A DNA stretch of 64,000 nt, from contig OU696589.1 of assembly GCA_916048095.2 (NCBI GenBank), positions 1,403,001 to 1,467,000 on the forward strand, in the 5' to 3' direction. The first letter of the stretch is position 1. Every line of letters starts with the position of its first letter. Positions 4,691-56,513 of this stretch are shown here, piece after piece. The notes under the pieces were generated by a model. That model was not told where the DNA came from. It made no database searches and was given only the letters and a program-made list of their open reading frames with translations. Origin of the DNA: Sacculina carcini. Lineage: Eukaryota; Arthropoda; Thecostraca; Sacculinidae. The translations under genes and the position numbers were made by a program.

Positions 4691-5009
4691 GGTGGCGTGT
4701 GCGGTGCATAACACATGCATGTGATAGTATTGCGATTTGAGTGGCATTATTGTTTGTATCTGGTTTCACTATGTACACGTTATTTAAACTGTATGTAGAA
4801 TATGCGCTGCACATGTTTTGCAATGTTCACTGAAATCGCTTACGCAAGCACACACACACACGCGCACAAGATTAGATGACGAAGAGGGGGAGAGCTGTAC
4901 ACCGGGCGAGCATGGAGCAGCATCCACTTCACAGAACTTGTAGCAATACAGCCAACCAGCGACGCCGGGGCGGACTATGGTGTCTACATCAACGCCCACT
5001 CATCTCGGG

Positions 5010-5017
5010 TATAAAAA
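5010..5017 (+). promoter_or_regulatory. TATA box in GYP1 5' LTR
   Basis: TATAAAAA preceded by CTCGGG, repeated at 11839-11846 in the 3' LTR. If used, transcription would start about 30 bases downstream, before the 31-bp array, so the array would be transcribed. No start site can be proven from sequence. Confidence 0.6.
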
Positions 5018-5133
5018 GTCCCATGTCCGATGTTCATGCACGGTCTGGCAGGGCTACTCTCTGTGACTGTCCTTTTGTCTTATTCCCAGCATTTGAGCGC
5101 ATTGCCGTTGGCATATACGCCGTTCACTGGGTC

Positions 5134-7330: not shown

Positions 7331-7467
7331 GATCTGTTTATATGATTTTTCTGCTTATATAATTTGTTTATATAATTGAATTATAATCGTTGAGTGGTTA
7401 TAATATATCGTGTAAATTGTTGTCTTAGTGTATTTTGGTAGCCTGCCATTAACGGCAGTGTTACAAA

Positions 7468-11521: not shown

Positions 11522-12285
11522 TGTGGCGTGTGCGGTGCATAACACATGCATATGATAGTATTGCGATTTGAGTGGCATTATTGTTTGTATCTGGCTTCAC
11601 TATGTACACGTTATTTAAACTGTATGTAGAATACGCGCTGCACATGTTTTGCAATGTTCACTGAAATCGCTTACGCAAGCACACACACACGCGCACAAGA
11701 TTAGCTGACGGAGAGGGCGAGAGCTGTACACCGGGCGAGCATGGAGCAGCATCCACTTCACAGAACTTGTAGCAATACAGCCAACCAGCGACGCCGGGGC
11801 GGACTATGGTGTCTACATCAACGCCCACTCATCTCGGGTATAAAAAGTCCCATGTCCGATGTTCATGCACGGTCTGGCAGGGCTACTCTCTGTGACTGTC
11901 CTTTTGTCTTATTCCCAGCATAATGTTCATATTCGCATTGCCGTTGGCATATACGCCGTTCACTGGGTCTATATACATAGCTGTGCTACGCACGCTGTTT
12001 TATATACATAGCTGTGCTCCGCACGCTGTTCTATATACATAGCTGTGCTACGCACGCTGTTTTCTATACATAGCTGTGCTACGCACGCTCTTTTATATAC
12101 ATAGCTGTGCTACGCACGCTGTTTTATATGCATAGCTGTGCTCCGCACGCTGTTTTATATACATAGCTGTGCTCCGCACGCTGTTTTATATACATAGCTG
12201 TGCTACGCACGCTGTTTTATATACATAGCTGTGCTACGCACGCTGATCTGTTTATATGATTATATACATATAAACATATATATAC

Positions 12286-12316
<31 letters not shown>

Positions 12317-12840
12317 CATACATACATATATATACATATATACATACATATATACGCTGATCTGTTTTATATACATTGCTGTGCTACGCACGCTGTTTTA
12401 TATACATAGCTGTGCTACGCACGCTGTTTTATATGCATAGCTGTGCTCCGCACGCTGTTTTATATACATAGCTGTGCTCCGCACGCTGTTTTATATACAT
12501 AGCTGTGCTCCGCACGCTGTTCTATATACATAGCTGTGCTACGCACGCTGTTCTATATACATAGCTGTGCTACGCACGCTGTTCTATATACATAGCTGTG
12601 CTACGCACGCTGTTCTATATACTTAGCTGTGCTACGCACGCTGTTTTTATATACATAGCTGTGCTACGCACGCTGTTTTATATACATAGCTGTGCTACGC
12701 ACGCTGATCTGTTTATATGATTTTTCTGTTTATATAATTTGTTTATATAATTGAATTATAATCGTTGAGTGGTTATAATATATCGTGTAAATTGTTGTCT
12801 TAGTGTATTTTGGTAGCCTGCCATTAACGGCAGTGTTACA
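11522..12840 (+). repeat. GYP1 3' LTR (1.32 kb)
   Basis: Starts TGTGGCGTG and ends GTGTTACA. Same sequence as the 5' LTR except for the minisatellite, which here has about 9 units (11970-12244), then a TATACATA-rich simple repeat (12258-12357), then about 11 more units (12367-12706). The TATA box is repeated at 11839-11846. Confidence 0.93.
11970..12706 (+). repeat. 31-bp minisatellite in the 3' LTR, interrupted by (TACATA)n
   Basis: About 20 copies of the same 31-bp unit as at 5134-7330. They are split by a 100-bp AT-rich tract made of ATATATACATACAT steps that looks like an expansion of the TATATACATA part of one unit. Confidence 0.95.
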
Positions 12841-14508: not shown

Positions 14509-14672
14509 TGTCACATATGTATGTAGATATATGTGCGTGTGTGTTATGAACAGTGCGTGACGTCACGCGTCACGCCACTGTCGTGGGAGTGGCTTGACGG
14601 TGCGCACGCGGGGGCTCGGGAGTGTGGCGCAGGACAGTGTGCAATACATGGTCGTATGATCAACATGTTACA
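14509..14672 (+). repeat. GYP2 5' LTR
   Basis: 164 bp, TGTCACATATG ... CATGTTACA. Same length as the 3' LTR. Contains a palindromic TGACGTCA at 14558-14565. Confidence 0.95.
14558..14565. promoter_or_regulatory. CRE-type palindrome in GYP2 LTR
   Basis: TGACGTCA, the consensus CREB/ATF site, embedded in GCGTGACGTCACGCGTCACGCC and repeated at 19003-19010. Whether it acts as a promoter element is inference. Confidence 0.45.
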
Positions 14673-18953: not shown

Positions 18954-19117
18954 TGTCACATATGTATGTAGATATATGTGCGTGTGTGTTATGAACAGTG
19001 CGTGACGTCACGCGTCACGCCACTGTCGTGGGAGTGGCTTGACGGTGCGCACGCGGGGGCTCGGGAATGTGGCGCAGGACAGTGTGCAATACATGGTCGT
19101 ATGATCAACATGTTATA
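18954..19117 (+). repeat. GYP2 3' LTR
   Basis: 164 bp, ends TGTTATA where the 5' copy ends TGTTACA, followed by the duplicated target CAAAC at 19118-19122. Confidence 0.95.
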
Positions 19118-27259: not shown

Positions 27260-27264
27260 GGATA

Positions 27265-27818
27265 TGTGGTTTTTCTTCTACTGCACGACCCTCCATAAGG
27301 TGAATTAGAAAAGAAGATGTATTAAATGACACACAAAATGATGATGAGGAAAAATCAGTAAAGAGAAAAAACCAAAGAAACCAGAACACAAAGCACGCGA
27401 AAACCTCTGTCGAAAGCCGATACGCGAAAACACCAAAATAACCCACAGAAACTCTCCACGTCCGAGTCACGACAAACCGCCACACACACTCCCTCCAAAG
27501 TTCATTCACACCACGAACAATCACTCGCACACAGACATACAAACCCGCACATACACGCCTAAGCTCGCTCGCGCACACAACCCATCCCCATCCCCAAGTC
27601 CAAACAGGTCAGCTTATACGTACACATACGCACACTCGCGCGCACACACACGTACACACACACACACACACACATACACACACACACACACACACGTTCA
27701 AACCATGAAACCCACACAGACACATACACTCACACACTCGCGCATGCGTACACTTACTAATGCAAACACTCATACGTGCATACTCACATATACAACTATA
27801 AATATACATACATTCACA
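27265..27818 (-). repeat. GYP5 3' LTR
   Basis: 554 bp; on the minus strand TGTGAATGTATG ... AAAACCACA. Contains a (CA)n tract at about 27650-27695 longer than or different from that of the 5' LTR. Preceded by the target GGATA on the plus-strand left. Confidence 0.93.
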
Positions 27819-27826
27819 CTCCCACC
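27819..27826 (-). other. GYP5 polypurine tract
   Basis: Minus-strand GGTGGGAG abuts the 3' LTR. The hairpin at 27827-27842 directly precedes it. Confidence 0.7.
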
Positions 27827-27842
27827 TGATTCCTAAGAATCA
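27827..27842 (-). other. hairpin at pol stop / polypurine tract of GYP5
   Basis: Plus strand TGATTC-CTAA-GAATCA, a 6-bp stem with a 4-base loop. It overlaps the pol stop codon (27833-27835, in the loop). GYP6 has a hairpin of the same size at the same place with different bases (36197-36212). Confidence 0.7.
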
Positions 27843-30800
27843 CAAAAGTGGCACCGCCTTTGCTGTCGAATTCTTTCGCTCCTGCGCAACTCAGGTACTG
27901 GAAGCTCCGCTTCTGGTTCCGCATCCGGCTGCGGGGGATCTGGTTCCAAACATACAGGTTCCCTGAATCGTACAGTCACTGGTGGCTCATTGTAGCCGCT
28001 GATGTCACTTCGATCCGCGACATCGGTTGATCCGTTTTGAACTGTTGGCACCTTCGGCGTCCCCGTCTCGTTCCTCGGTCGCACATCTTTGACGTGATAA
28101 GGTACTCTGTCCACCCCTACAGCTTGACTTGAAATAACGCTAGTGACATTACCCCTGGAGGACACTTGGTCACAGCGTGTTCCTGGCCGCCTCACCCACA
28201 CACTATGTCCAATCTGATAGCTGTTGCCTCTAGACCTAGCTCTCGTAGGAGTTTCATCTACATCTCTTATTCCTGGTGAGTACCGATATAACCGATCCAT
28301 CGGAGAAGATTCAGCACTATCCTCCGACGGCAACAAATTGTAGCGATATACTGCTTCTTCTATCGAACAATGAGATCTGGCCGCGATCACCTTAACTGTG
28401 CGATGACATCTTTCCACTATTCCGTTCCCATGTGGCTCATAAGCACATCGGAAAATCGGCATTGCTCCCCAACGTGACAAAAACGCGCGGAACTCTGAGC
28501 TGGTGAAAGCTGTTCCATTATCGGTCAGTGCTTCTCGAGGTGCTCCTCTTTCAAGGAATATTTGTTCGAGATTCGTCACTACGCTCTTGCTGTCCTCCCG
28601 CGCCAGTTTCCTCCAAAGGGCGAATCGAGATGGCCCACAATCAACTACCGATAGGTACGGAATTCCTCGTACGTGTGTCACATCCATCGCAAGTCGATCC
28701 CAAGGGCATTTGACAGAAAGTATGCCGTGGTTCCATTTGACCGGTGCCGGATCAATCGAACGACAAACTTCGCAGTTCATGACTACTTCGCGGGCCATCC
28801 TTTTGGTCACTCGAGAGTCCCGCCGTTTGGCAAAAGACCACGTTCTTCTTACCCCTGGATGCCCAGCAACATGGTGCAATCTCATAATTTCATCTTGCTG
28901 CACCTCCGGCGATGGATGACCGGCGCAGCACGTTTGAACTGTTGAAGTCATCCACCTGGCGGGCACCCGAGTTAGGACATCCGCAAGATTTTCTGCAGAG
29001 CGTACTAACACTACTTCAATATTTAGTCCAAGCTCTTCTTGAATTCCTTTCACCGTGCCCAGTCTTCTTCTTATCAGAAAGTCTCCAGCTGCCTTGGTTT
29101 TAACCCTGGCTTTCCCTGTAAGGGCATCTCGTAGCCAGTGGAGCACGGTGAGCGAGTCTGTTTTGACTCGAATTTTGTTCATTCTCCACGAAACCGCTCA
29201 ATTGATCCCTCTCAGTACGGCATCAAGCTCAGCCATATTAATATGGTAATCATCTTTGCGTAACCAGCACGCGTCTTCTATCACATGTCCATTCTCCTCC
29301 AACACGACACCCAAAGCTAACTGACTCGCATCTACCCATATATCAGCATGATCACCTCTCACACACCAGTGCCCTCTTGCCATGTCTTCCGATTTCACCT
29401 TTTCTCTGAACAGATTGATCACTCGTAGACAATGAGAGTCCAAAATGTCATCATCCCACCCAGATGATGCTTCATTTGCCAAACGTTTCACAAATGACAA
29501 GGCCGCTCTCATCCATCCACACACAGGCATGTTTCCAACGACCTTTCCGCAAAATCAGAAAACATTACGTCTTGTGACTGGTCCACACAGGTCCCCAACT
29601 TCATTGTCCCTTGCCCAAGTGAGTGGTCCATCTTGTTGGTGCACACGCAGACCAAGAACACGAAACGATGGTTCAGCTCTACTCACGGGCTTGCACACCA
29701 AGCCGTATCGACTGAAATGGCTGCTCACTTTATCGGCGCTCACCACACGCTCGCCGACTAGAATATCATCTAAATACGCTGATGACGATTTGTTCACATC
29801 TGCATCCTGCCTCAGCACGTAGTCGACAATCGATTTCATTATCAGAGGTGCCGCACTGAGACCGAATCCCGAACGGGTAAGGCAATAGCGCTTCCCTTGA
29901 ATCATGACTGTCTGGTATCTCCAGAGCTGTGGCTCGACCCGCACCTGTAGGTAAGCTTTTTTGAGATCCAGCAACGCTATGCTCTCACCCATTCTCCTCC
30001 AGTCACGCATATTTTGTTGGCACATATCCGCATCAGCTGTATAGAGTTCAATGAATTGGTTCAGTTGCCGGAAGTCCGTGACCGGCCTCAACTTTCGTTT
30101 GTTTTCTTGATTGACTGCCATCAGTGGTATCAAGCCTTTCACCGACCCATGCTTCTTCCCATCATGCTCCACCAACCAGCCCTCATCAATCCACATATGC
30201 AGTTCCGCGTCGTACTCTTCACGATCCCGTGGTGATATTTTATATTCCGGAATACTGTTCGTCAGAACAGCGGTATGTTCGGACCACTTCCACCTCACAC
30301 TCCAGGCATTATCAGCAGGGTTGAAGGTTGCTGCAGAATTCTTTTCTTCAATATTTGGTTTGTCCACAACTGCTGCTGCCACATCATCTTGGCCCATTTT
30401 CCCTTGACTTGGATCCCCGAAAGCCAGCCTCCTGTCTTTATCTATCGATACGCCTCCCAGAGCCATAATGCCATCAAGTCCCAACACGAAATCCACTCCA
30501 ACCGGCCGATGCTCTACCACAATAGCGTCCACAGAAGACCGCCGATCCTCAACACAGACCAGGACTAAGCTGGTACCGTCACAGAACATTCTGTCTCCAC
30601 TAATAGTCTCAAGAGGTAATTTCTTCCAATTTATTCCACGTCTGCAAAGTCTCTTGTTCACCAAACTCCTGGAGCATGTGACCAATCTGATGATGTGACC
30701 AATCTGACCGCACTTAAAACAAGTCAATTGACGACCCCTGTCAACACCATCACGTCTGACACGCTGGGAGCATGCGCGAGCAATATGACCACGTCTACCG

Positions 30801-31453
30801 CACACGTAGCACCTTACAAAACGATCTACGTATGAATTGCTCAAGGTAGGTGCAGAAACAGCCATGCCAGTAGTTTTGTTTGTGTCATTTCTCTTCAAAC
30901 AGTCCAAGTGGTTTGTTGTGGCCACACTACTCTCTGCCAAGACAACCCTCGCTCTACTACCGACATCTGGTATTGACATGTCGTCCAGCTTGACATTTGC
31001 TCGTAGAGTATGTCTCACATGCTGTGGCATTGCGCTCAAAAATGCGCATTTAATTGCCACCGGATCGGTTATCTTGCACCTTGCTCCCAATCTCTGAAGG
31101 TCTGCCAATAATACGTCCACACATTCACCATCCGACAGCTGCCGAGTCGCAAGCTTGTCGTAGGCTGCAAAAGCGTCAGTTCCCAATACAGCATGTAGAG
31201 CCTTCTCGACTTTGCCCATATTCAGCTGATCTGTGTCTAAGAGTCCATCAACCACTGAGTAGGCGTCTCCTGCGAGGCGCATCCAGGCCACTTGCGCCAC
31301 ATTGCTCACTCCATGCAGACGACACATTTTCTTGACTCTGCTTAGCCACTTGGAAGGATCTGTTGTACCGTCATACTCTGGCACCAGGCGCACATCAAGG
31401 ACTGCAGTTGCCGAAATAGCTTGTGGTTTTTCTTCTACTGCAAGGCCCTCCAT
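27833..31453 (-). pseudogene. GYP5 Gag-Pol fusion with two stops
   Basis: A single frame of about 1200 codons. The ATG at 31451-31453 lies inside the 5' LTR and the first ten codons (MEGLAVEEKP) are LTR sequence. Gag is followed by two CCHC knuckles, CYVCGRRGHIARAC and CFKCGQIGHII. A protease-like stretch and RT follow: LDLKKAYLQVRV (motif A) and AYLDDILVG (catalytic). RNase H: DIWVDASQLALGVVL. Integrase: HHVAGHPGV ... CEVC, then AMDVTHV (D), LTDNGTAF (D) and NGIVERCHRTVK (E). The tail has RRSERIRQQRR. Stops at 29555-29557 and 29198-29200 (both TGA) break RNase H; there are no frameshifts. Residues of all active sites seen are intact. Confidence 0.92.
31410..31421 (-). other. GYP5 putative primer site complementary to the tRNA-Phe 5' end
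   Basis: The first 12 bases after the 5' LTR (minus strand AGCTATTTCGGC) are the exact complement of GCCGAAATAGCT, which is how animal tRNA-Phe begins (from memory). No TGG-type site for a tRNA 3' end is present at the junction. The same 12 bases stand at the same place in GYP6 (39925-39936). They are also codons of gag (Ala-Ile-Ser and part of the next Ala). Confidence 0.6.
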
Positions 31454-31793
31454 GAGGTGAATTAGAAAAGACGATGTATTAAATGACACACAAAATGATG
31501 ATGAGGAAATATCAGCAAAGAGAAAAAACCAAAGAAAGCATAACACAACGCACGCGAAAACCTCTGTCGAAAGCCGATACGCGAAAACACCAAAATAACC
31601 CACAGAAACTCTCCACGTCCGAGCCACGACAAACGGCCACACACACTCCCTCCAAAGTTCATTCACACCACGAACAATCACTCGCACACAGACATACAAA
31701 CCCACACATACACGCCTAAGCTCGCTCGCGCACACAACCCATCCCCATCCCCAAGTCTAAACAGGTCAGCTTATACGTACACATACGCACACT

Positions 31794-31841
<48 letters not shown>

Positions 31842-31961
31842 CAAACCATGAAACCCACACAGACACATACACTCACACACTCGCGCATGCGTACACTTAC
31901 TAATGCAAACACTCATACGTGCATACTCACATATACAACTATAAATATACATACATTCTCA
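31422..31961 (-). repeat. GYP5 5' LTR
   Basis: 540 bp; minus strand TGAGAATGTATG ... AAAACCACA. Flanked by GGATA at 31962-31966. Includes a (CA)n tract at about 31801-31838 and the gag start codon, 32 bases from its end. Confidence 0.93.
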
Positions 31962-31966
31962 GGATA

Positions 31967-32604
31967 CTAGCTGGAAAACATTTGCGGTGAAATTTTTTGA
32001 GTGTCTTGAAACGTCTATCTGGGATATCGCAAAATTATATTGACATCACCTGTGTTAGAGGCTGTTTGCAAAAATGGTTATGACTAGAGTTGAAACCTGA
32101 GCAAATATAATATATCACATCTGTTTAAGACCGGGAAATACAATATAGACATTGCCAACATACCCGAAGTTACACTGAGAAGTGTTCAACGGTGGATCAA
32201 GAGAATCCGCGACGCAGTAGCGCTTAATGTACCTCACACAAGAAGTCCATAGGTAGGCCAATCTACGAGAACGAGAACATCTACGAGAACTTTGAATGTT
32301 CTGAGAAAACTGGTTGAGACTCATCATCGTCTAACGGCGGCAGAATTGAAGGAAAAGGAACTAAATTACTATCTCACGTATCTCTGTCAGAACAGTGAAT
32401 CGTCGTCTGCACTTTGACCTCGTATTCAGACATCTTGTCCTTCGCCGAAAACTAATCTACTGCCGAATAATCGCCGTTTGCCGCAAGTATCTGAAATAGG
32501 ATAAGGGAACATAGCGGAATGTACTTTGGAGTGATGAGGTCGTATTTACTGTGACTGGAAACCGAGGTGGCAATGTGTATCGTCGATCTGGCAGTTATGT
32601 CTAT
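31967..32604 (+). pseudogene. Tc1-like transposase, first half
   Basis: From about 32085, broken frames read HLFKTGKYNIDIA, VTLRSVQRWIKRIRD (helix-turn-helix), TLNVLRKLVETHHRLTAAEL, then RTVNRRLHFDL and VLWSDEVVFTVTGNRGGNV. The last is the first catalytic aspartate block (W-S-D-E) of Tc1/mariner transposases, with YRRSGSY after it. Several shifts separate these pieces. The gene is cut at 32604 by GYP7 (target CTAT). Its continuation is at 40532-40580 and then 43266 onwards, once GYP7 and the LINE-C copies are removed. Sequence before 32085 is not recognised and may be the 5' end of the transposon. Confidence 0.85.
32601..32604 (+). repeat. GYP7 target-site duplication, left copy (CTAT)
   Basis: CTAT precedes the left LTR and recurs at 40532-40535 after the right LTR end. 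Both flanks are Tc1 sequence. Confidence 0.75.
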
Positions 32605-32892
32605 TTTAGCGAGAGCCACAAACACCAAAACACGTAGCAAATTTAATGATCACCCGTACAAGAGCGCGAGCAACGAGGTGCGCACACGGCAAGCGTCCAT
32701 GAGAGAAGGAAGGAAAACTCCCAAGTTCAGTGACAGTGCCACATACAATACGCATCAAAGTAAAAGTTCAAACAAATGTTCACAACAAAAACAAGACGCA
32801 CATACGAAGGTATGATAAATTAAATTACATAATACACAGAGAAAGAAACACTTAAATAAATAATAATAACGCAAAGGGCTGTAGCGGGCCGG
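32605..32892 (-). repeat. GYP7 3' LTR
   Basis: 288 bp, matches 35443-35671 joined to 40464-40531. The right boundary is uncertain by about 20 bp because this copy (GGGCTGTAGCGGGCC) and the other (GGGCTGAATGCGGCGC) diverge there. Confidence 0.85.
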
Positions 32893-33180
32893 TCGGTGTT
32901 CTGGACGGCCGGAGCGCGTGTATTGGTCTGCAGTGTCTATGACCAGCGTTGGCGCCGGCACTGGACAGCCGGGGACGCTCGGCAGTGCCCTAGGTGCTGG
33001 GCGATCGATGACAGCGGTAAATGGCGGCACAGGTGTCGTGACGTTCAGCCGCAGTGGGAGGAAGAAACTGTGTCGATGAGTCGCAGCGCGCCGTTGCTGA
33101 TAACCGGGACGTGACGGAATCAAGTGCACGACAGGGGCGTTGGCGAATACCACTGTCTTTACCGTTGATGCCGTTGGCCG
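32893..33180 (-). pseudogene. GYP7 Pol C-terminus remnant
   Basis: Minus-strand coding remnant with a Pro/Arg-rich stretch and YTRSGRPEHRPARYSP, equivalent to the TRSGR ... RPP tail that ends Pol in GYP1. Nothing of integrase core is visible, so the deletion reaches into the C-terminal domain. Confidence 0.65.
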
Positions 33181-34530
33181 ACTTATACGGAGAATGGACT
33201 TCGGTGCGCGCGTGTCAATCGTCCATGCAATGAACTCTCGGAGTCTCTCGATGGTCGAGTGGGGCGAGCAGCTGGGACGCGTGCGGTATCAGCCGGTGGT
33301 AGAAGGTTACCATCCCGATGAAGCGGCGTAGTTGCGCCTGTGTGGCCGGTTGGGAGAACGACTTTACTTCGGTAGCTTTTTTGGCCGTAGGAGCCACACC
33401 GGCATGAGAGAGATGGTGTCCGAGGAAATCTAGCTCCGGCACGCCCACGACACATTTGTCGACGTTGAGTTGCACGCCGATATCGTTGAGCCGCTGCAGG
33501 ACGGCGCGTGGATGGCGCTCGTGTTCCTCCACCGACTTGCTGGCCGCGAGTATGTCGTCGACATACACAGAGCAGCCACCTAGGCCCCGAAGTGCCTCGT
33601 CCAGGAAACGCTGGAATGTTTGTGCGGTCGAATTCCGCAGGCCAACGCACAGCATGCGGAATTCGAAGAGGCCGAATGGTGTGACCACGGCGGTCTTCGG
33701 GATGTCCTCTTCTGCGACGGGTATGTGGTGGTACGCGCGCACAATGTCGAGCCTCGAAAACATGGTGGAGCCGGCCAGTTGGGCGACGCTGTCGTGGAGG
33801 AACGGCACCGGGTACCGGTCGGGTTTTGTGATTGCGTTAAGTGCGCGGTACACTCGCAGACTACCGTCCGACTTGTTTACCACGTGCAGGGGACTCGACC
33901 AGGCGCTAGACGACCGTCGAACGATGCCCAATGCCAGCAGACGGTCGAACTCTCGCCGCACTATCGTGAGTTTTTCGGGTGCGAGGCGGCGGGCGCGGGA
34001 GTACACCGGACGGCCCTTTGTCGGAATGTGGTGCATCGTTGCGTGCACTGGCGGCCGGTTGAAGTCGGGCTGCGCGATGATGACCGTGAACTCATGCAGT
34101 ATCCGCTTCAAGTTCGTGGGGTCCACAGTCAGGATGTCACACGCCGCCGCTATGTCTGGATGTGTCATCGAAAGAGCGACAGACGAGCCGTCGCTGGGCT
34201 GTCGCTGCGCCATGTCGATGGAGAGACGGAAGTTGGAGAGGAAGTCAGCATCCAGGATGGCGGTCGGAGTGTCGGCGACGACGAAGCGCCATTCGTACGT
34301 GACGGCAGACATGCCGGCGAGACGCATTGTGGCGTGATACGTGCTGTGAGCGGCGATCGGTCGCCCGTCCGCCGCACGCAACCGGGGTTTGCTGTCAGAG
34401 CTATTCACAGCCGACTGTTGCAGCCTGCTGCGCGGCCACACGCTAACCTGGCACCGGTGTCCACCAGCAGACTCTGGCCTGAGATCAGGTCTGTGACAAA
34501 TAACAGCGGATGTGGTAGTGTCGCTGAGAC
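33181..34530 (-). pseudogene. GYP7 protease and reverse transcriptase
   Basis: LLVDTGARLA near 34440-34470 is the protease active site; the following frame (34441-33215, 408 codons) starts just after it, so a shift lies at the active site. RT parts: PVYSRARRLAPEKL, SRLDIVRAYHHIPV (motif A), RNSTAQTFQRFLDEAL, YVDDILAASKSVEEH (catalytic V-D-D) and LDFLGHHLSHAGV. The frame ends within the thumb region (FIGMVTFYHRLIPHAS). No RNase H or integrase core follows. The plus-strand ORFs of 290-325 codons over this interval are antisense shadows. Confidence 0.88.
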
Positions 34531-34553
34531 GGGCGCTACTTGCCCCAGCGCGG

Positions 34554-35428
34554 CTAGTTTAAAGCCGGCCGGAAGTTACACGGCGGGCGGCAGCTGATGG
34601 CGTCGCGGCCGAACGTGCGATGGTAATAGCACACAGCGTCGTCGTCGTCGGTGCGTGGCGGTGAACGCGTTCTCGAGCGGCTGCGCTGTGGTATGTGCAT
34701 CCCCCGTGTGCGTGCCGTCGTCATCTCCCGCACGGCTGAGGTCAGCTCTGTGACGGCGGCGAGCAGTTGCTGCACGGGCGGGTCCGCCCTGCTGTTGCCA
34801 CCGGCCGAACCGTGCGTCGATTGGACTGCCGCTACAGACACCAGCGGCTGATCGGCGCGTGTGGCGTCCATGAAGCGGTCGGCGACGGCGGCCATCTCGT
34901 TCAGCTGCGTTGTGTCCGGCAGGAATGATATGGCCGCCTTCACGTTGCTGAGCAGCCTCTGCATGAAGAGGGTTTGCAGCAGACCGGTGTCAACGGACGA
35001 ACTCCCGGCACTCTCCAGTTCGCCCCTCATGCGACGAAGCAGCTGCGACGGCTGCTGATCGCCCATGTGCTGATGACGCAGCATAGCTTCCAGCCGGCCG
35101 CTCGCGAGAGTGCCACGCGCGTAGTGAGGTTCTCACAGAGAAGCTGTTAGTTTGGCGGCCCCATCACCACGCCTTTCAGCTCCGTCGCCACGTCGATCGG
35201 CAGGTTGGCGACCAGAAACTGAAACTGCCGGACGGGCGACGTGATGCCCGCCACTGCAAAAGCGCAGCTTACCTGCGCGAGCCACAGCTCTGGTTCTCCC
35301 GGAGTAAATGGCGGCAGCCGGAACAAAGTGGTGGGCCGGCCATCGTCGTTAACCTCGACACATGACACGGGCTCGGCGCTCGGAATGGGAGTCGTGGCGT
35401 TGTTAGGCATCTCACAATAAAAAGTCAC
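34554..35428 (-). pseudogene. GYP7 Gag in two frames
   Basis: 35428-35147 gives the N-terminus with FRLPPFTPGEPELWLAQV. After an indel near 35100-35146, 35084-34554 gives MLRHQHMGDQQPSQLLRRM and DTGLLQTLFMQRLLSNVKA, an Ala-rich linker and the CHCC-type finger CYYHRTFGRDAISCRPPC (CX2HX9CX3C). Same architecture as Gag of GYP1 and GYP3. Confidence 0.85.
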
Positions 35429-35441
35429 GTCGTGGTCACCA
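35426..35441 (-). other. GYP7 primer binding site (tRNA-Trp type)
   Basis: Minus-strand TGGTGACCACGACGTG differs from the tRNA-Trp complement at one base (A for C). One base from the LTR at 35443. Confidence 0.75.
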
Positions 35442-35442
35442 A

Positions 35443-35671
35443 TTTAGCGAGAGCCACAAACAGCAGAACAAGTAGCAAATTTAATGATCACCCGTAAAAG
35501 AGCGCGAGCAACGAGGTGCGCACACGGCAAGCGTCCATGAGAGAAGGAAGGAAAACTTCCCAGTTCAGTGACGGTGTCACATACAATACGCATCAAAGTT
35601 AAAGTTCAAACAAATGTTCACAACAAAACCAAGCCGCACATACGAAGGTATGATAAATTAAATTACATAAT
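35443..35671 (-). repeat. GYP7 5' LTR, first part
   Basis: Left part of the 5' LTR; it continues at 40464-40531 beyond GYP6. The last five bases ATAAT are the GYP6 target duplication. Confidence 0.88.
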
Positions 35672-36002
35672 TGTGGTTTGATGTCCATTTTTACACCACG
35701 AAAACAAAACTACCTTGTAAAATGATGAACTCTATTGATGACGACAACAAATATGATTTAACAACAACAAGATGAAAACTCACACATACACAGTAGAGCA
35801 ATAATCTCTCTCTAGGCTGGCATAAATTATAACCACACAAACAGCACACAGAAGACTACACCGACCAGTCCACACATAACAACACAACGCACGATGAGCA
35901 CTACCACACCACTCCCGTCATTCCATACCAGCCGCTAACACCAGTACACGCTGCATACAAACATACAAACACGAAGTAGAATCATTCGCATGAATACAGT
36001 GA

Positions 36003-36041
<39 letters not shown>

Positions 36042-36189
36042 GTCTACGCTCAGTCACACACAGGTACACACACAAGTCTACGCTCGCAAGCGCACACGCT
36101 CTCCTTCACTCTCGCTCAATTCAGCAAACGCATTCACACCCCCATTCATTCCTTCGCACAGCGTTCAATTTCTGACCAACAATACCACA
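35672..36189 (-). repeat. GYP6 3' LTR
   Basis: Minus strand TGTGGTATTGTTGG ... ATCAAACCACA. A (CA)n tract at 36009-36041 is the main length difference from the other LTR. Confidence 0.95.
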
Positions 36190-36212
36190 CTCCCCCTTGA
36201 TCTCAAGATCAA
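36190..36212 (-). other. GYP6 polypurine tract with adjoining hairpin
   Basis: Minus-strand GGGGGAG (36190-36196) abuts the LTR. Plus-strand TTGATC-TCAA-GATCAA (36197-36212) is a 6-bp stem with a 4-base loop, directly after the pol stop (36213-36215). Confidence 0.72.
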
Positions 36213-38867
36213 TCAATCACCTACGAAATAATCATCCATCCAAGGCGGACGTCTCCTCTCTCTGGTAGATCTCCGAAGAATGTGCTCACTCCGGTCCTCT
36301 TCGGCTCTATTATGTATGTCAGTTGTCTCGAGCACTTCGTTTGTGTCCGCTGCACAGTCATCTGGAGTCTGATTGTCCACGTCTAGACCACCGGCGTCAT
36401 CTCGATTATTGTCTTCATCATACACACGCCGCAGATCTAGTAGATGCCTCGGTACTCCATCCACCGATACATTGTTTGAGGACTGAATCCCGGTCACTCT
36501 TCCTTTTGACCAATGCGACGTACATCTTGCCCCAGGTGGCTTTACCCACACCTCATCGCCGACTTCTATGCCCGAGTTCTTCTCGCCGTCGTCATTGTGG
36601 GCTGGCAAAACCTCCGGATGTCGCCAGGCATATGTGTAGACACTGTGTTGCGGCGCCTCGTCTTCAATTCGATCCGCTTTGGGCGCCATGTTGTACCGAA
36701 ATACCGCCTCGAGCGGGGAGATGCCAGCTCTCTCCGCTATCCTCTTTATCGTACGATGATGCCGTTCGACAATACCGTTTCCGCTGGGTCGATAAGCCGC
36801 TCGGAAAAACCTGCTGATTTTCCAGCCATCGAGGGTTTCCCTGAGTAATTCTGACTTGAACACCGTTCCATTGTCCATCAGCAATTGTTCAACAGGCCCT
36901 CGCTCATAAAATACTTGGTTCAGGATATTTGAAATCTCATTTGCCGACTCTGCACGCAGCTCTCGCCATATCGCCAACCTTCCAGGGCCGCAATCAACAA
37001 TAGAAAGAAATGGACGATATCTGAAATGAGTAACATCGACTGCCAATCTTGTCCAGACTGTTGGCACGTGCAGCTCGCCCGCCTCGTGAGTCACCGGCGC
37101 AGGATCGATAGACTGACACTCCAGACAGCTCTTCACCACACGTTTCACCTGTTCACGTGTCACAGTAGGGTCCACTTGCTTAGCGAGAGATAACGTTCTG
37201 TCAACGCCCATATGATGACTACGGTGGAGATCTTTCACTCTTTCCAACGCCATGTCGCATGTTTCGTTTACCGGTTTTCTCTCGAGCTTCAGCATCCATT
37301 GCCTGTTGATGCGCGTCAATGAGTCTGCTTTGTTACTTGCTGTAGGAACAAGAATCAATCTCACTTCGAGACGCAATTCATCAATTAACTCCTTGACTAC
37401 TCCCAGTCGTCGTTTCACAAGAACTTCTGCAGCTCCTTTTGTCTTCACTCTGTTCTCGTCGGATAGTGTGGCACGCAGCCAGCCAAAAACTGTAGCGGAG
37501 TCGGTGCGTACTTCTATACATTCTAATCCCCACTTTATTGCAAGATTGAGTCCTCTGGATACAGCTTCAAGCTCAGCGACGTTTATATGATTGAAGTCAT
37601 CTTTTTTCCTCTGCCACGAGGCATCTTCCACTACGATTCCGTCGATTTCGATTACTGTTCCAATAGCCTGATTACTGGCGTCACACCACACAACACCAGA
37701 TTTCGATTCTGAAACCGACCACTTTCCTTGCACTGGATCTTCGATTTTCACTTGTTCTAGCATGTCGTGTGTAACAGACAGAACTTCCTCCCGGACTGTG
37801 TCATCCCAGCCACCATCGGATGAATGACGTTTGACATAGCTGCACGCCGGTCTGAGCCACCCGGAAATGGGATAGTGGCCCAACAATTTCCCACATAAAG
37901 AAAACAGTTGGCGTTTAGTCAGTGTACGATCTACCTGCGGTAACTCATTTCCCCGACGAAACTCCAGCAAGCCCGCTGCATTTCTCTGCACTCTCAGACC
38001 GAGCACTGCACCGCCAACAATTGGAGTCGGATCTTTGGCAATCAGTCCATACTTGCGCAAATGATCAACCACATGATTCGGGTTCACTTTTGTTGTATCA
38101 ACCACAATATCATCGATATAGGAATCGGTTGCTTCACGGATAACTTTAGACTTCTCCAGCACTCTGCGCAAAATTCTGGTCATGATTCGCGGTGCTGAGC
38201 TGAGACCAAACCCCAATCTCGTGAGGCAGTATGTTATGCCCCCATACTTAACCAGTTGACACTGCCAGAGCTTCGGATGCACACGTATTTGGAGATATGC
38301 TGACTTCAAGTCAACCAGCGCCGTCGCACCTCTGATTCGTCGCCATCGCCGAAGCTTTTCCGCGCAAACATCGATGTAATCATCACCAGTGTGACTGCTG
38401 ACATATTCTTTTAGCTCCCTGAAGTCAATAACTGGACGCGTTTCGTTTTTGGTTGTTTGCACAACCGCCAACAATGGTGATACTCCTCTCTTGACTTGTT
38501 GTGACCACGGCACCAATATTACTTCGCTTATCCAGCGCTTCACTTCTTTGTCAAACTCCTCCCTACATCCTCCTTTCAACGTTTGTTCGTAACATCCAAT
38601 TGACTTGGTCAAAACAGGTGACGTTTCCTTCAGAAACCACTCGACTTCCCAATAACTACCATTCAATTTAGCTGAGAAATCTTTGTCACTGAACTGGTCT
38701 TCAAAGAACTCAGACTTCAACCTTTCATCAGACATGCTCATCTTGCAGCATTCGGTGTTTTCATCCTCCTTCGGATGTACTGCAGTCCCGCTAACAGCAA
38801 TAACGCTTGAAAACGCGTCAACATTACTGTTTTTCCCCTGCTGTTTTAGCAACTTTCCGAACTCCAC
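36213..38867 (-). CDS. GYP6 Pol: reverse transcriptase, RNase H, integrase
   Basis: Open frame of 884 codons. RT: ETRPVIDFRELKEY, ALVDLKSAYLQIRV (motif A) and DSYIDDIVVDT (catalytic I-D-D). RNase H: VVWCDASNQAIGTVI, then HINVAELEAVSRGLNLA and VRTDSATVFGWL. Integrase zinc part: HRSHHMGVDRTLSLAKQ ... CLECQ; core: LAVDVTHFRYR (D), LLMDNGTVFKS (D) and GNGIVERHHRTIK (E). The C-terminus has GDEVWVKPPGARC and a basic RRSTRERRRPPWMDDY tail. All catalytic residues are present and nothing interrupts the frame. The start is the first ATG only; protease precedes it in another frame. The pol frame is the same as the gag frame. Confidence 0.92.
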   Translation of the reverse strand: MEFGKLLKQQGKNSNVDAFSSVIAVSGTAVHPKEDENTECCKMSMSDERLKSEFFEDQFSDKDFSAKLNGSYWEVEWFLKETSPVLTKSIGCYEQTLKGGCREEFDKEVKRWISEVILVPWSQQVKRGVSPLLAVVQTTKNETRPVIDFRELKEYVSSHTGDDYIDVCAEKLRRWRRIRGATALVDLKSAYLQIRVHPKLWQCQLVKYGGITYCLTRLGFGLSSAPRIMTRILRRVLEKSKVIREATDSYIDDIVVDTTKVNPNHVVDHLRKYGLIAKDPTPIVGGAVLGLRVQRNAAGLLEFRRGNELPQVDRTLTKRQLFSLCGKLLGHYPISGWLRPACSYVKRHSSDGGWDDTVREEVLSVTHDMLEQVKIEDPVQGKWSVSESKSGVVWCDASNQAIGTVIEIDGIVVEDASWQRKKDDFNHINVAELEAVSRGLNLAIKWGLECIEVRTDSATVFGWLRATLSDENRVKTKGAAEVLVKRRLGVVKELIDELRLEVRLILVPTASNKADSLTRINRQWMLKLERKPVNETCDMALERVKDLHRSHHMGVDRTLSLAKQVDPTVTREQVKRVVKSCLECQSIDPAPVTHEAGELHVPTVWTRLAVDVTHFRYRPFLSIVDCGPGRLAIWRELRAESANEISNILNQVFYERGPVEQLLMDNGTVFKSELLRETLDGWKISRFFRAAYRPSGNGIVERHHRTIKRIAERAGISPLEAVFRYNMAPKADRIEDEAPQHSVYTYAWRHPEVLPAHNDDGEKNSGIEVGDEVWVKPPGARCTSHWSKGRVTGIQSSNNVSVDGVPRHLLDLRRVYDEDNNRDDAGGLDVDNQTPDDCAADTNEVLETTDIHNRAEEDRSEHILRRSTRERRRPPWMDDYFVGD

Positions 38868-39330
38868 TCCACGTTTTGTGATTTTGACTTTTTCAGAGAA
38901 TTACATCGAACCCACTCACTACTTCCGGAAGGACAATCACTTGCGCATGCAATTCTTCACCATTGACCACGATACACGTTTAACACGTACCTAAACACAA
39001 AATTTCACTTCCGTCTACTGTGACGACACGCTTTGGCTCCTTAATAAATGCCAAGCCACATTTTGCAGACACAATACTTTTTGAACACCCGGTGTCGATC
39101 ATAGCCGTCACTGTTCGTCCACATATTCGTACCTTCGCACTCATTAGACCCCCGCGTTGCGCCTCCACTGTACAGAGGGGGAGCTTCTTGGCGCTGAAGC
39201 CCCCCCCCCCCCTACATCGTTTCCCTTTGCGCACTTTGCTGCAACATGTCCTATCTGACCGCAATTGAAGCACACTATCGCAGAACGTCTGCAATGTCGC
39301 GCCATATGGGCACCTCCGCAGTTGAAGCAT
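38868..39330 (-). pseudogene. GYP6 protease region, different frame
   Basis: The frame 39330-38980 contains VTAMIDTGCSKSIVS, the D-T-G active-site loop, in a frame different from gag and pol. It is entered across a run of about 13 G (plus strand C, 39199-39212), so either the run is a mutation hotspot that slipped or it is a site of frameshifting. A stop at 38980-38982 and another before 38880 end it. A short stretch with VVNGEELHAQVIVLPEV follows that stop. Confidence 0.75.
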
Positions 39331-39953
39331 CGTCCGTTGACGTTCGGACGACGTTCGACTGAACGTCGAATGGCAGCTGCTCCAGCCACGGTGTGATCAG
39401 CTGAATCATCACCGGCCGCTACATATGCCGCCATGGTTCCAGAACTAGCTGAAGCATCTGCCCGTGTCAATATACGAGCCCTCGAGATCAGACGACTCAT
39501 AGTTACTGTCTGCATATCGTCTTCCTGTAGTCCTGCCGAAACTCGGTCCGGAAACCCACTAATGAACGCCAACTTCACCGAGAGTTCCAATCCCTGACTG
39601 ACAAAACCGCACAAGCCAGCGAGTCGTCTAAGCTCATTTGCGTACACATCCACTTGCTCTCCTTGCCACTTCTTCTTCGTCAGCATGGCAAATGATTCAA
39701 CTGGATTGGGGGAAAACGCTTCTCGCAGTTTGGATTTGATCAAATCGTACCTTGACTGCGCCCCTTCATTGAGCTCGAGGTAGAGTGACAATGCTCCTCC
39801 TTCCAGAAATAGTGGCACAAACGCATGCAGCTCAGTCACTCCTGTCAGCTTGGCCACAAGTTCTGCCTTCTTAAACCATGCGACTACGTCGCCAGTACCG
39901 TCAAAATTCTTCATCATTGTTGTAGCCGAAATAGCTTGTGGTTTGATGTCCAT
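39144..39953 (-). CDS. GYP6 Gag
   Basis: The ATG at 39951-39953 is inside the 5' LTR; the first five codons (MDIKP) are LTR, then QAISAT spans the junction. Capsid-like part: VVAWFKKAELVAKL, ELNEGAQSRYDLIKSKL, LTKKKWQGEQVDVYANELR and ALSVKLAFISGFP-like helices, as in arthropod-type gypsy Gag. Two CCHC knuckles, CFNCGGAHMARHC and CFNCGQIGHVAAKC, precede a Gly-rich run encoded by poly-G. Beyond the run this frame ends after about 17 codons, while protease is in the other frame. Confidence 0.88.
   Translation of the reverse strand: MDIKPQAISATTMMKNFDGTGDVVAWFKKAELVAKLTGVTELHAFVPLFLEGGALSLYLELNEGAQSRYDLIKSKLREAFSPNPVESFAMLTKKKWQGEQVDVYANELRRLAGLCGFVSQGLELSVKLAFISGFPDRVSAGLQEDDMQTVTMSRLISRARILTRADASASSGTMAAYVAAGDDSADHTVAGAAAIRRSVERRPNVNGRCFNCGGAHMARHCRRSAIVCFNCGQIGHVAAKCAKGNDVGGGGASAPRSSPSVQWRRNAGV
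39925..39936 (-). other. GYP6 putative primer site complementary to the tRNA-Phe 5' end
   Basis: Plus strand GCCGAAATAGCT directly before the LTR (39937). Same 12 bases at the same spot as in GYP5. Overlaps gag codons. See the finding on both elements. Confidence 0.6.
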
Positions 39954-40458
39954 TTTTACACCACGAAAACAAAACTACCTTGTAAAATGATGAACTCTAT
40001 TGATGACGACAACAAATATGATTTAACAACAACAAGATGAAAACTCACACATACACAGTAGAGCAATAATCTCTCTCTAGGCTGGCATAAATTATAACCA
40101 CACAAACAGCACACAGAAGACTACACCGACCAGTCCACACATAACAACACAACGCACGATGAGCACTACCACACCACTCCCGTCATTCCATACCAGCCGC
40201 TAACACCAGTACACGCTGCATACAAACATACAAACACGAAGTAGAATCACACGCATGAATACAGTGACGCACATACACACACACACATACACACACACAC
40301 ACACACACAAGTCTACGCTCAGTCACACACAGGTACACACACAAGTGTACGCTCGCAAGCGCACACGCTCTCCTACACTCTCGCTCAACTCAGCAAACGC
40401 ATTCACACCCCCATTCATTCCTTCGCACAGCGTTCAATTTCTGACCAACAATACCACA
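39937..40458 (-). repeat. GYP6 5' LTR
   Basis: 522 bp with the same ends as the 3' LTR; followed by ATAAT (40459-40463). Contains the gag ATG 17 bases from its end. Confidence 0.95.
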
Positions 40459-40463
40459 ATAAT

Positions 40464-53336: not shown

Positions 53337-53660
53337 AGTCCAGTGTTGTGTGGATGTGCATTGTGTAAGTGTGATGTGCGTTGAGTGTTTGTCAGTCTGT
53401 GTAGTCGAATGTGGCAGGGTCTAGTCAATGTTGTCGTTTGTGTTCTGCGGTATGTTCTCGTCCCACCGTTCCCGACCCGTCGGCCGTCCGCTGCCGCCCC
53501 TAACCCCTAGTCCATGACTTAGTTGGCATCCCCTCGTTTGTCGTCGTCACGCGGCCATCCTTCTCGCGGGCGGCAACGCTTCGGTGCCCAGTCGCCGTCG
53601 CCGAAACTCGCGCCGCTGCCACCGACGATTGCATACGTCTCCTGGAGGCCAGCGCAGCCC
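53337..53660 (-). other. R2-A linker between the modules and RT
   Basis: Region between the last ZnF-Myb module and the RT frame. 53430-53520 is shared with R2-B at 50305-50430. Frames are broken. Confidence 0.6.
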
Positions 53661-56513
53661 TCGCCGCGGACGAGCGCGCCGCTGAGTCCGCCAGCAATGG
53701 CGCCACCGACACCGAAGACCGCACGTTCGCCGCCGCCTCGCAACAATCCGCGTCGCGGGCGGCAACACCCCTGCGCTCAGTCGTCGCCGCCGACCCCCGC
53801 GCAGCCGCTACCGTCGGCCGCGGCCGTCTCCCGGCCACCGGCGCCGCGAGCGCCACAGACGAACACGCCGCCGACTCCGCCAGCAACGTTGTCACCGACA
53901 CCGACTAACGCACGTTCGCCGCCGCTTCGCAGCAATACGCTTCCCGGGAAGTCAATGAGGAGCCTCCTCATTGCCTGGGATTCGCCCCGACACTTCACGG
54001 CGTCCAGCGTGCGATCCGGCAGAACACGCTGGGCATACGCGCGCTCACACTGGGCCTTCAGCGGACTTAGGCCGTCCCGCTCCACTCGCAACATAGCCCT
54101 CGCTAGAAGCTGGTCCTCTTCTGTATCCCACCTTGCCTTACCAGCTGCTGCGGCCGCCATGCAGATCGAGTCCGCGTGGTCGCTGTGGTAGGCGGAGGCG
54201 TGCTCCCGTCTGGCGTGAAGCGAAGCGCCCCGAGAGGTGGTAAACCGCCGGTCACAATACCGACAGCCCACCTTGCCGTCGCTCTCCATCACCCGCGAGG
54301 CCTCCATTATAGCCGGTATCGGGCGGGCACCTGCATCCCGCCCGTTGGTGGCTGTTCCATCAATATTTTCGCCTCGCCGCGGACGAGCGCGCCGCTGAGT
54401 CCGCCAGCAATGGCGCCACCGACACCGAAGACCGCACGTTCGCCGCCGCCTCGCAACAATCCGCGTCGCGGGCGGCAACACCCCTGCGCTCAGTCGTCGC
54501 CGCCGACCCCCGCGCAGCCGCTACCGTCGGCCGCGGCCGTCTCCCGGCCACCGGCGCCGCGAGCGCCACAGACGAACACGCCGCCGACTCCGCCAGCAAC
54601 GTTGTCACCGACACCGACTAACGCACGTTCGCCGCCGCTTCGCAGCAATACGCTTCCCGGGAAGTCAATGAGGAGCCTCCTCATTGCCTAAGATTCGCCC
54701 CGACACTTCACGGCGTCCAGCGTGCGATCAGGCAGAACACGCTGGGCATACGCGCGCTCACACTGGGCCTTCAGCGAACTTAGGCCGTCCCGCTCCACTC
54801 GCAACATAGCCCTCGCTAGAAGCTGGTCCTCTTCTGTATCCCACCTTGCCTTACCAGCTGCTGCGGTCGCCATGCAGATCGAGTCCGCGTGGTCGCTGTG
54901 GTAGGCGGAGGCGTGCTCCCTTCTGGCGTGAAGCGAAGCGCCCCGAGAGGTGGTAAACCGCCGGTCACAATACCGACAGCCCACCTTGCCGTCGCTCTCC
55001 ATCACCCGCGAGGCCTCCATTATAGCCGGTATCGGGCGGGCACCTGCATCCCGCCCGTTGGTGGCTGTTCCATCAATATTTTCGCCTCGCCGCGGACGAG
55101 CGCGCCGCTGAGTCCGCCAGCAATGGCGCCACCGACACCGAAGACCGCACTTTCGCCGCCGCCTCGCAACAATCCGCGTCGCGGGCGGCAACACCCCTGC
55201 GCTCAGTCGTCGCCGCCGACCCCCGCGCAGCCGCTACCGTCGGCCGCGGCCGTCTCCCGGCCACCGGCGCCGCGAGCGCCACAGACGAACACGCCGCCGA
55301 CTCCGCCAGCAACGTTGTCACCGACACCGACTAACGCACGTTCGCCGCCGCTTCGCAGCAATACGCTTCCCGGGAAGTCAATGAGGAGCCTCCTCATTGC
55401 CTGGGATTCGCCCCGACACTTCACGGCGTCCAGCGTGCGATCAGGCAGAACACGCTGGGCATACGCGCGCTCACACTGGGCCTTCAGCGGACTTAGGCCG
55501 TCCCGCTCCACTCGCAACATAGCCCTCGCTAGAAGCTGGTCCTCTTCTGTATCCCACCTTGCCTTACCAGCTGCTGCGGCCGCCATGCAGATCGAGTCCG
55601 CGTGGTCGCTGTGGTAGGCGGAGGCGTGCTCCCGTCTGGCGTGAAGCGAAGCGCCCCGAGAGGTGGTAAACCGCCGGTCACAATACCGACAGCCCACCTT
55701 GCCGTCGCTCTCCATCACCCGCGAGGCCTCCATTATAGCCGGTATCGGGCGGGCACCTGCATCCCGCCCGTTGGTGGCTGTTCCATCAATATTTTCGCCT
55801 CGCCGCGGACGAGCGCGCCGCTGAGTCCGCCAGCAATGGCGCCACCGACACCGAAGACCGCACGTTCGCCGCCGCCTCGCAACAATCCGCGTCGCGGGCG
55901 GCAACACCCCTGCGCTCAGTCGTCGCCGCCGACCCCCGCGCAGCCGCTACCGTCGGCCGCGGCCGTCTCCCGGCCACCGGCGCCGCGAGCGCCACAGACG
56001 AACACGCCGCCGACTCCGCCAGCAACGTTGTCACCGACACCGACTAACGCACGTTCGCCGCCGCTTCGCAGCAATACGCTTCCCGGGAAGTCAATGAGGA
56101 GCCTCCTCATTGCCTGGGATTCGCCCCGACACTTCACGGCGTCCAGCGTGCGATCAGGCAGAACACGCTGGGCATACGCGCGCTCTCACTGGGCCTTCAG
56201 CGAACTTAGGCCGTCCCGCTCCACTCGCAACATAGCCCTCGCTAGAAGCTGGTCCTCTTCTGTATCCCACCTTGCCTTACCAGCTGCTGCGGCCGCCATG
56301 CAGATCGAGTCCGCGTGGTCGCTGTGGTAGGCGGAGGCGTGCTCCCGTCTGGCGTGAAGCGAAGCGCCCCGAGAGGTGGTAAACCGCCGGTCACAATACC
56401 GACAGCCCACCTTGCCGTCGCTCTCCATCACCCGCGAGGCCTCCATTATAGCCGGTATCGGGCGGGCACCTGCATCCCGCCCGTTGGTGGCTGTTCCATC
56501 AATATTTTCAGTA
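53661..56513 (-). repeat. four 713-bp tandem modules of the R2-A 5' end
   Basis: Period 713 bp, with equivalent points at 53661, 54374, 55087 and 55800, differing by only a few bases. Each module holds the end of the 5' UTR, the start MEASRVMESDGKV, a C2H2 finger (CRYCDRRF ... LHARREH), a Myb-like segment (RWDTEEDQLLARAM ... LPDRTLDAVK) and an Arg-rich linker. 713 is not a multiple of three, so the modules cannot be read through as one protein. In the 5'-most module a single base change (CTCTCACTGG for CTCACACTGG near 56183-56192) makes a stop after LSSLKAQ. Confidence 0.95.
53777..54481 (-). pseudogene. R2-A N-terminal protein frame, 3'-most intact module
   Basis: Longest ZnF-Myb frame (234 codons with upstream Arg-rich leader). 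A likely start is the MEASRVMES Met at 54307. C2H2 finger with C-x2-C and H-x4-H, then W-D-T-E-E-D of the Myb-like domain and PDRTLDAVK. R2-clade proteins use these domains to bind rDNA. The same frame recurs in the modules ending at 54490, 55203 and 55916. It ends in a Gly/Ala-rich reading and a stop, not joined in frame to RT. Confidence 0.8.

Follow-up and report, generated by a model that had tools for sequence, protein, structure and literature searches.

Ty3/gypsy-type LTR elements of Sacculina carcini probably include a set that is primed from a 5' tRNA fragment of about 12 nt ending in the D arm, to judge from the sequences at their LTR borders. The candidate primer-binding site is a run of 12 bases lying flush behind the 5' LTR, and it occurs in two forms, which we take to be the complements of the first 12 bases of tRNA-Phe and of tRNA-Ile.

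Structure of GYP5 and GYP6

Two elements, GYP5 and GYP6, lie on the minus strand of the window, the whole 64-kb stretch of DNA that was analysed (Table 1). Both have two TG...CA LTRs, a 5-bp target site duplication (TSD) and a polypurine tract, as expected of Ty3/gypsy LTR elements, and they are the only ones among all elements examined in which both LTRs and the TSD were verified. The LTRs are 98.3% identical in GYP6 (522 columns, with five mismatches and one gap) and 95.1% identical in GYP5 (551 columns); the 3' LTR of GYP5 starts with TG and ends with CA, and its 5' LTR starts with TGAGAATG. Pfam matches comprise zf-CCHC, RT, RNase H-like, DUF7047 and integrase domains in GYP6 and a zinc knuckle, RT and integrase in GYP5, with the integrase after the RT in both, as determined from the ORF positions. 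GYP6 is inserted in a repeat of which an intact copy at ~32790-32850 represents the empty site.

Table 1. Positions of GYP5, GYP6 and their parts in the window.
Feature	Position	Strand	Basis or remark
GYP6, Ty3/gypsy-type LTR element	35672..40458	-	LTR pair, TSD, domain matches
GYP6 5' LTR	39937..40458	-	sense-strand end ...CATCAAACCACA
GYP6 primer-binding site (predicted) AGCTATTTCGGC	39925..39936	-	presumed complement of tRNA-Phe nt 1-12
GYP6 gag ORF, 269 aa	39144..39953	-	start within LTR; 12-mer codes for part of QAISA
GYP6 pol ORF, 842 aa	36213..38741	-	RT part, RNase H-like, DUF7047, integrase
GYP6 polypurine tract, adjoins 3' LTR	36190..36202	-	sequence and LTR border
GYP6 3' LTR	35672..36189	-	LTR pair comparison, TSD
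GYP6 TSD ATAAT	35667..35671 and 40459-40463	.	uninterrupted paralogue
GYP5, Ty3/gypsy-type LTR element	27265..31961	-	LTR pair and TSD GGATA
GYP5 5' LTR	31422..31961	-	sense-strand end ...GAAAAACCACA
GYP5 primer-binding site (predicted) AGCTATTTCGGC	31410..31421	-	flush behind 5' LTR
GYP5 gag-RT ORF, 632 aa	29555..31453	-	ORF and Pfam
GYP5 integrase ORF, 449 aa	27833..29182	-	ORF and Pfam
GYP5 3' LTR	27265..27818	-	LTR pair comparison, TSD
GYP5 TSD GGATA	31962..31966 and 27260-27264	.	exact 5-bp duplication

Several other repeats were seen in the window. Copies of the repeat that contains GYP6 lie at 32605-32833, at 35443-35671 and from 40459, the right-hand copy being split by the element. 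Arrays of a 31-bp minisatellite occupy 4979-7465 and 11523-12840, the second ~88-96% like the first, and a tandem repeat with a unit of ~713 bp, its copies 99% alike, occupies 53659-56509.

In both GYP5 and GYP6 the LTR ends in ACCACA and AGCTATTTCGGC starts at the next base; on the plus strand of the window the two sites read GCCGAAATAGCT. The stretch common to the two elements is 20 nt long, AAACCACA followed by AGCTATTTCGGC, and its first eight bases are the LTR 3' ends. A preliminary description of this DNA had placed 12 identical bases first after the 5' LTR in elements whose Gags are otherwise different, and both observations hold: the 12 bases are flush with LTR ends fixed by the TSDs, and the Gags, although homologous, are 27% identical, with N-terminal KPQAISAT common to both. 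We take AGCTATTTCGGC to be the complement of nt 1-12 of animal tRNA-Phe.

Distribution of the site in the genome

The genome examined, 264 Mb in 43 contigs with the window among them, contains 2021 exact occurrences of the 12-mer AGCTATTTCGGC, compared to 5 of a reversed control, and 78 occurrences of the 20-mer AAACCACAAGCTATTTCGGC, compared to 0. Within the 64-kb window, six places match the 12-mer with at most two mismatches where 3.75 are expected by chance; 12-mers with two mismatches thus arise by chance in a stretch of this length, and the exact genome-wide counts exceed this. Junctions were read at all 78 places of the 20-mer (76 fetched loci and the two in the window) and at an unselected sample of 58 of 100 listed 12-mer places, taken regardless of LTRs, where the two bases before the 12-mer are CA at 56 places and CT at two.

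The junction flanks form 25 groups once three doubtful places (L015, L016 and L105) are dropped; an earlier grouping into 24 still included the chance place L105, and grouping on the LTR side alone yields 39-42. Among the 24 group representatives, this chance place included, the information content is 1.1-1.4 bits at positions -3 to -1 and -0.06 to 0.31 bits at +13 to +24. Apart from the 12 bases, the LTR end ACA is nearly the sole feature common to the flank groups, and the edge of conservation at +13 coincides with tRNA nucleotide 1. The motif was originally described as a feature of two elements, a view superseded by its 2021 exact copies and ~25 flank groups.

One common family with Phe-type sites has no gag ATG nearby (L110, L111, L118, L119, L125, L130, L131, L132, L133, L141, L145, L171, L178, L182, L183 and L184). 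Most of its members carry CTGCGACCCGGCTTCAGCAG ~30-45 bases behind the site, and the family possibly consists of non-autonomous elements.

In GYP5 and GYP6 the gag start codon falls within the LTR, and the 12-mer codes for part of QAISA. Elsewhere the ATG comes later: it follows immediately after the 12-mer at 23 of the 76 fetched 20-mer loci and lies at most 30 nt downstream of it at 42 of the 58 unselected places. The location within gag codons reported in the preliminary description is therefore correct for families with the ATG in the LTR and incorrect for others, and the position "inside gag" follows incidentally from the translation start that some families use. Since the 12-mer precedes the gag ATG in many families, protein coding is ruled out as the cause of its conservation; the same bases stand in coding and non-coding settings, so the constraint acts on the nucleic acid. 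The RNA-level constraint suggested earlier is accordingly upheld, with a site that is non-coding in many families and recurs in ~25 flank groups.

A second site type and its exchange with the first

Copies were also collected by a route that made no use of the 12-mer. The public Gag relative P0125 matched at least 150 places in the genome, of which 20 were chosen for variety in score and length, and the 220 bases upstream of each were fetched. All 20 carry a tRNA-5'-type site. Eight are of the Phe type (five exact, three with 1-2 changes), and 12 carry AGCTAACCGGCC (11 exact, one with a single change), which we take to be complementary to nt 1-12 of animal tRNA-Ile(AAT), GGCCGGTTAGCT. Both types are common, but the copies were picked by hand and their numbers do not give the proportions of the types. 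The site thus follows tRNA identity in 20 of 20 copies picked without the 12-mer. Relatives that keep the LTR junction and lack the Phe 12-mer, which were to count against the original proposal, do exist, but they carry the Ile complement, and the tRNA-5'-end reading is strengthened by them. The same second form rules out common descent of two similar Gags as the sole cause of the shared bases.

At the junctions read, the sites start with AGCT (one AACT and one AGAT among the Gag-selected copies excepted), and not with the TGG expected of a conventional tRNA 3'-end site. Complementarity to the anticodon region, as in half-tRNA priming, is likewise absent; the 12-mers equal the complement of what we take to be tRNA nt 1-12. 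The site is preceded by AA instead of CA in three of the 20 Gag-selected copies (L222, L224 and L228, one related group). Its first five bases, AGCTA, fit any tRNA with TAGCT at positions 8-12, here also those for Lys, Cys, Tyr, Thr and Ala, so only seven bases discriminate between Phe and Ile.

These seven bases can be exchanged as a block. The Ile-type copy L225 and the Phe-type copy L005 are identical at 208 of 219 bases, and five of their 11 differences fall within the seven bases TTTCGGC/ACCGGCC, while they agree at the LTR end, in AGCTA and in the downstream ATGGCAAAAAT. L225 is an Ile-type copy with the LTR and gag start of a Phe-type family, in which only that segment is swapped. At L140 (G000:C1:6826448-6828059) both sites stand in tandem, 19 bases apart, in the order TTTTACA, AGCTAACCGGCC, TGTAACA, AGCTATTTCGGC. 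At L144 (C1:7086940-7088551) the upstream tandem site is decayed (AGCTAATCGGCC) and the border site is exact, the pattern that a shifted LTR end would give. The exchange and the tandem sites are as expected if the primer is copied back into the site in every round.

Host tRNA genes

Searches of the 264-Mb assembly with seven sequence patterns and at the DNA level found no complete tRNA-Phe gene, a result that counts against the proposed primer, although an assembly gap may be the cause. The patterns, which covered the 5' end, the D arm with the anticodon, the anticodon with the T arm, and the T arm with the acceptor, matched only Tyr, Lys and chance places. The DNA search with animal tRNA-Phe returned only two isolated 3' halves, L219 (G000:C19:4480840-4481240) and L220 (C12:8527590-8527990), which start at A38 with no 5' half in the ~300 preceding bases; one of them terminates in GGGTTTCGGC, which is the pairing partner of GCCGAAA. 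In an RF00005 scan, 63 of 15013 candidates were scored and 51 listed, and the 20 of these that were fetched were typed by ARAGORN as Arg, Cys, Thr, Ala, Met and Val.

Relatives beyond the host

Among the best 120 of 736 relatives of the GYP6 pol protein, those that are named come from cephalopods, sea hares, decapods or mantis shrimps, and identity to proteins of Argonauta hians and Oratosquilla oratoria is 55-57%. A Phe-type junction peptide stands upstream of Gag in six of 193 listed public relatives: QAISA in P0099, P0183 (Plakobranchus ocellatus) and P0192, KLFRQ in P0112 and P0116, and SYFG in P0190. Most of the 193 stop short of the junction and are uninformative, and a pattern match in P0134 was rejected as it lies inside Gag. 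Eight relatives, read as protein only, have variant peptides, namely KLSRP (P0124, P0127, P0132), SYLG (P0153, P0155, P0179, P0184) and SYPG (P0162), which could represent other tRNA 5' ends; SYPG presumably fits the tRNA-Lys 5' end AGCTATCCGGGC, and KLSRP and SYLG would presumably fit AGCTATCTCGGC. Junction peptides of 4-5 residues are each weak evidence, yet they are placed right before the Gag start, and the traces in Plakobranchus and in metagenome relatives suggest that 5'-fragment priming may reach beyond this host. The single public relative of the GYP5 Gag, P0194, has an N-terminus without a junction peptide. A protein scan of viral contigs found no relatives, and of 33 places with a 15-mer in such contigs none had pol similarity better than E 0.29.

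Proposed priming mechanism

Flush 12-mers, two tRNA-specific forms, a sharp end of conservation and a swap between copies are read directly from the DNA, and from them we infer the RNA steps. The primer would consist of approximately nt 1-12 of a host tRNA with its 3' end in the D stem after U12, or of 10-12 nt if integrase trims up to two bases; the predicted RNA would read GCCGAAATAGCU or GGCCGGUUAGCU, with its end at U12 (or at G10-C13). This fragment, for which tRNA-Phe and tRNA-Ile would be alternative donors, is predicted to pair with the 12-mer immediately behind the 5' LTR, with duplex energies for the 12-bp RNA of -18.7 kcal/mol (Phe) and -23.1 kcal/mol (Ile). Because the U5 end of an LTR is set by the point at which minus-strand synthesis begins, an RNA paired flush at the LTR border with its 3' end there should be the primer. 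Minus-strand DNA would begin at the 3' OH of the fragment and thereby set the U5 end, and plus-strand strong-stop DNA would copy the attached primer and run off at tRNA nucleotide 1, so that each cycle would rewrite the site from the tRNA. Run-off at nucleotide 1 would account for both the exact 12-nt length of the site and the wholesale tRNA swaps. The acceptor and T-stem stack is also 12 bp, the length measured by tRNA-end nucleases, and, speculatively, a nuclease of the tRNase Z kind that measures the 12-bp hybrid could create the primer 3' OH. The earlier suggestion of a primer site for a tRNA 5' end has been reinforced by a second form that matches the first 12 bases of another tRNA, as we take them to be, and the proposal of a 5' fragment ending in the D arm has gained plausibility from this form and from the flush sites. 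New insertions of HIV and MLV are described as acquiring a copy of their primer tRNA (PMC7472051); the site exchange would make such copying directly visible in genome sequence.

The origin of the primer's 3' end is the only point separating this proposal from one with a longer 5' tRNA piece as primer, such as a half of ~33 nt, whose nt 1-12 pair and whose unpaired 3' tail is trimmed before extension. Half-tRNA primers are used by copia, Ty5 and some plant and fungal Copia elements (PMC5371799, PMC6317226, PMC10886601), and cleavage in the D stem is otherwise unusual; we regard a longer piece as unlikely overall, though a serious candidate. Alternatively, the 5' end of a full-length tRNA might act as a helper only, in a bipartite site of the kind that exists in Ty1 and Ty3 (PMC5371799), with the tRNA 3' end as the true primer. 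Pairing of nt 1-12 would, however, place that 3' end on the downstream side of the site and not at the LTR border, and the junctions read begin with AGCT and not TGG, which makes this arrangement improbable.

Self-priming, in which the element RNA would pair its own 5' end with the 12-mer, is known in Tf1 and Tj1 (PMC4600332) and predicted in some plant elements (PMC6317226), but found no support in the two window LTRs or the fetched junctions. In the LTRs of GYP5 and GYP6, GCCGAAATAGCT matches no better than in shuffled sequence, and an antisense 12-mer is found at one of 119 junctions with at least 600 nt upstream (L025), where it lies outside the family LTR, next to an LTR end and a flank that are those of another element family. 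Self-priming moreover predicts neither tRNA 5' ends nor a switch between two tRNAs, and we give it almost no credence. The 12-mer might instead be some other conserved signal, for packaging, dimerization or translation or as a DNA element, with a tRNA fit that is coincidental or due to shared descent. Shared descent of the junction is real, given the homology of the two Gags, and AGCT is palindromic. Against this, two distinct 12-mers fit the exact 5' ends, as we take them to be, of two tRNAs, the exchange alters five of seven bases at once between otherwise near-identical copies, and the flanks vary freely on both sides; a signal of this kind is very improbable.

Comparison with known priming systems

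Three kinds of primer, namely whole tRNAs, half tRNAs cut at the anticodon and self-primers, are counted in a plant survey (PMC6317226). The 12-nt 5' tRNA fragment ending in the D stem would, if real, be a fourth, and on balance we favor the broader view that it is a distinct priming mode of LTR elements, used by thousands of gypsy-type copies, with Phe and Ile fragments interchangeable and the site rewritten to the first base of the fragment. Very short 5' tRNA fragments would thereby gain a concrete role, D-stem cleavage would be predicted along with an enzyme to look for, and the failure of standard, TGG-seeking tools to find a primer site in these elements would be explained. A search of the open literature, with subscription papers and Repbase notes outside its scope, found no element described as primed by a tRNA 5' end. 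Other departures from the conventional site include bivalve TRIMs, described as having no recognisable site, two of them resembling the middle of tRNA-Tyr (PMC6934838), and Skipper elements, with a polypyrimidine stretch in its place (PMC5006619).

The primer-binding site of Tf1 is 11 nt long. The self-primers of Tf1 and sushi elements share with the sites described here a short site without complementarity to tRNA 3' ends; here, in contrast, the sites match what we take to be two tRNAs and no LTR sequence. The mollusc and crustacean gypsy relatives bearing PF23088/DUF7047 resemble these elements in pol, a comparison made at the protein level. A conventional counterpart is present in the window itself, where a CsRn1-like element, also Ty3/gypsy and with its site directly behind the LTR, differs in a site that starts with TGG: the repeat at 14509-14670 is followed by CATGGTGTCAGAAGG. 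The repeats at 14509-14670 and 18954-19115 form an LTR-like pair, 99.4% identical.

The half-tRNA systems (Drosophila copia, yeast Ty5, Osser, Bryco, Bianca and fungal Copia and Helenus elements) resemble the present one in that a tRNA piece other than the CCA end pairs behind the 5' LTR, and in that the primer 3' end derives from internal cleavage, as proposed here. They differ in where the tRNA is used. Both the cut and the pairing lie in the anticodon loop or stem in these systems (PMC5371799, PMC6317226, PMC10886601), the fungal Helenus and Copia elements having anticodon-loop sites (PMC10886601), whereas here nt 1-12 would pair and the cut would fall in the D stem. The plant survey limits half-tRNA primers to Ty1/copia (PMC6317226), whereas the elements described here are of the Ty3/gypsy type.
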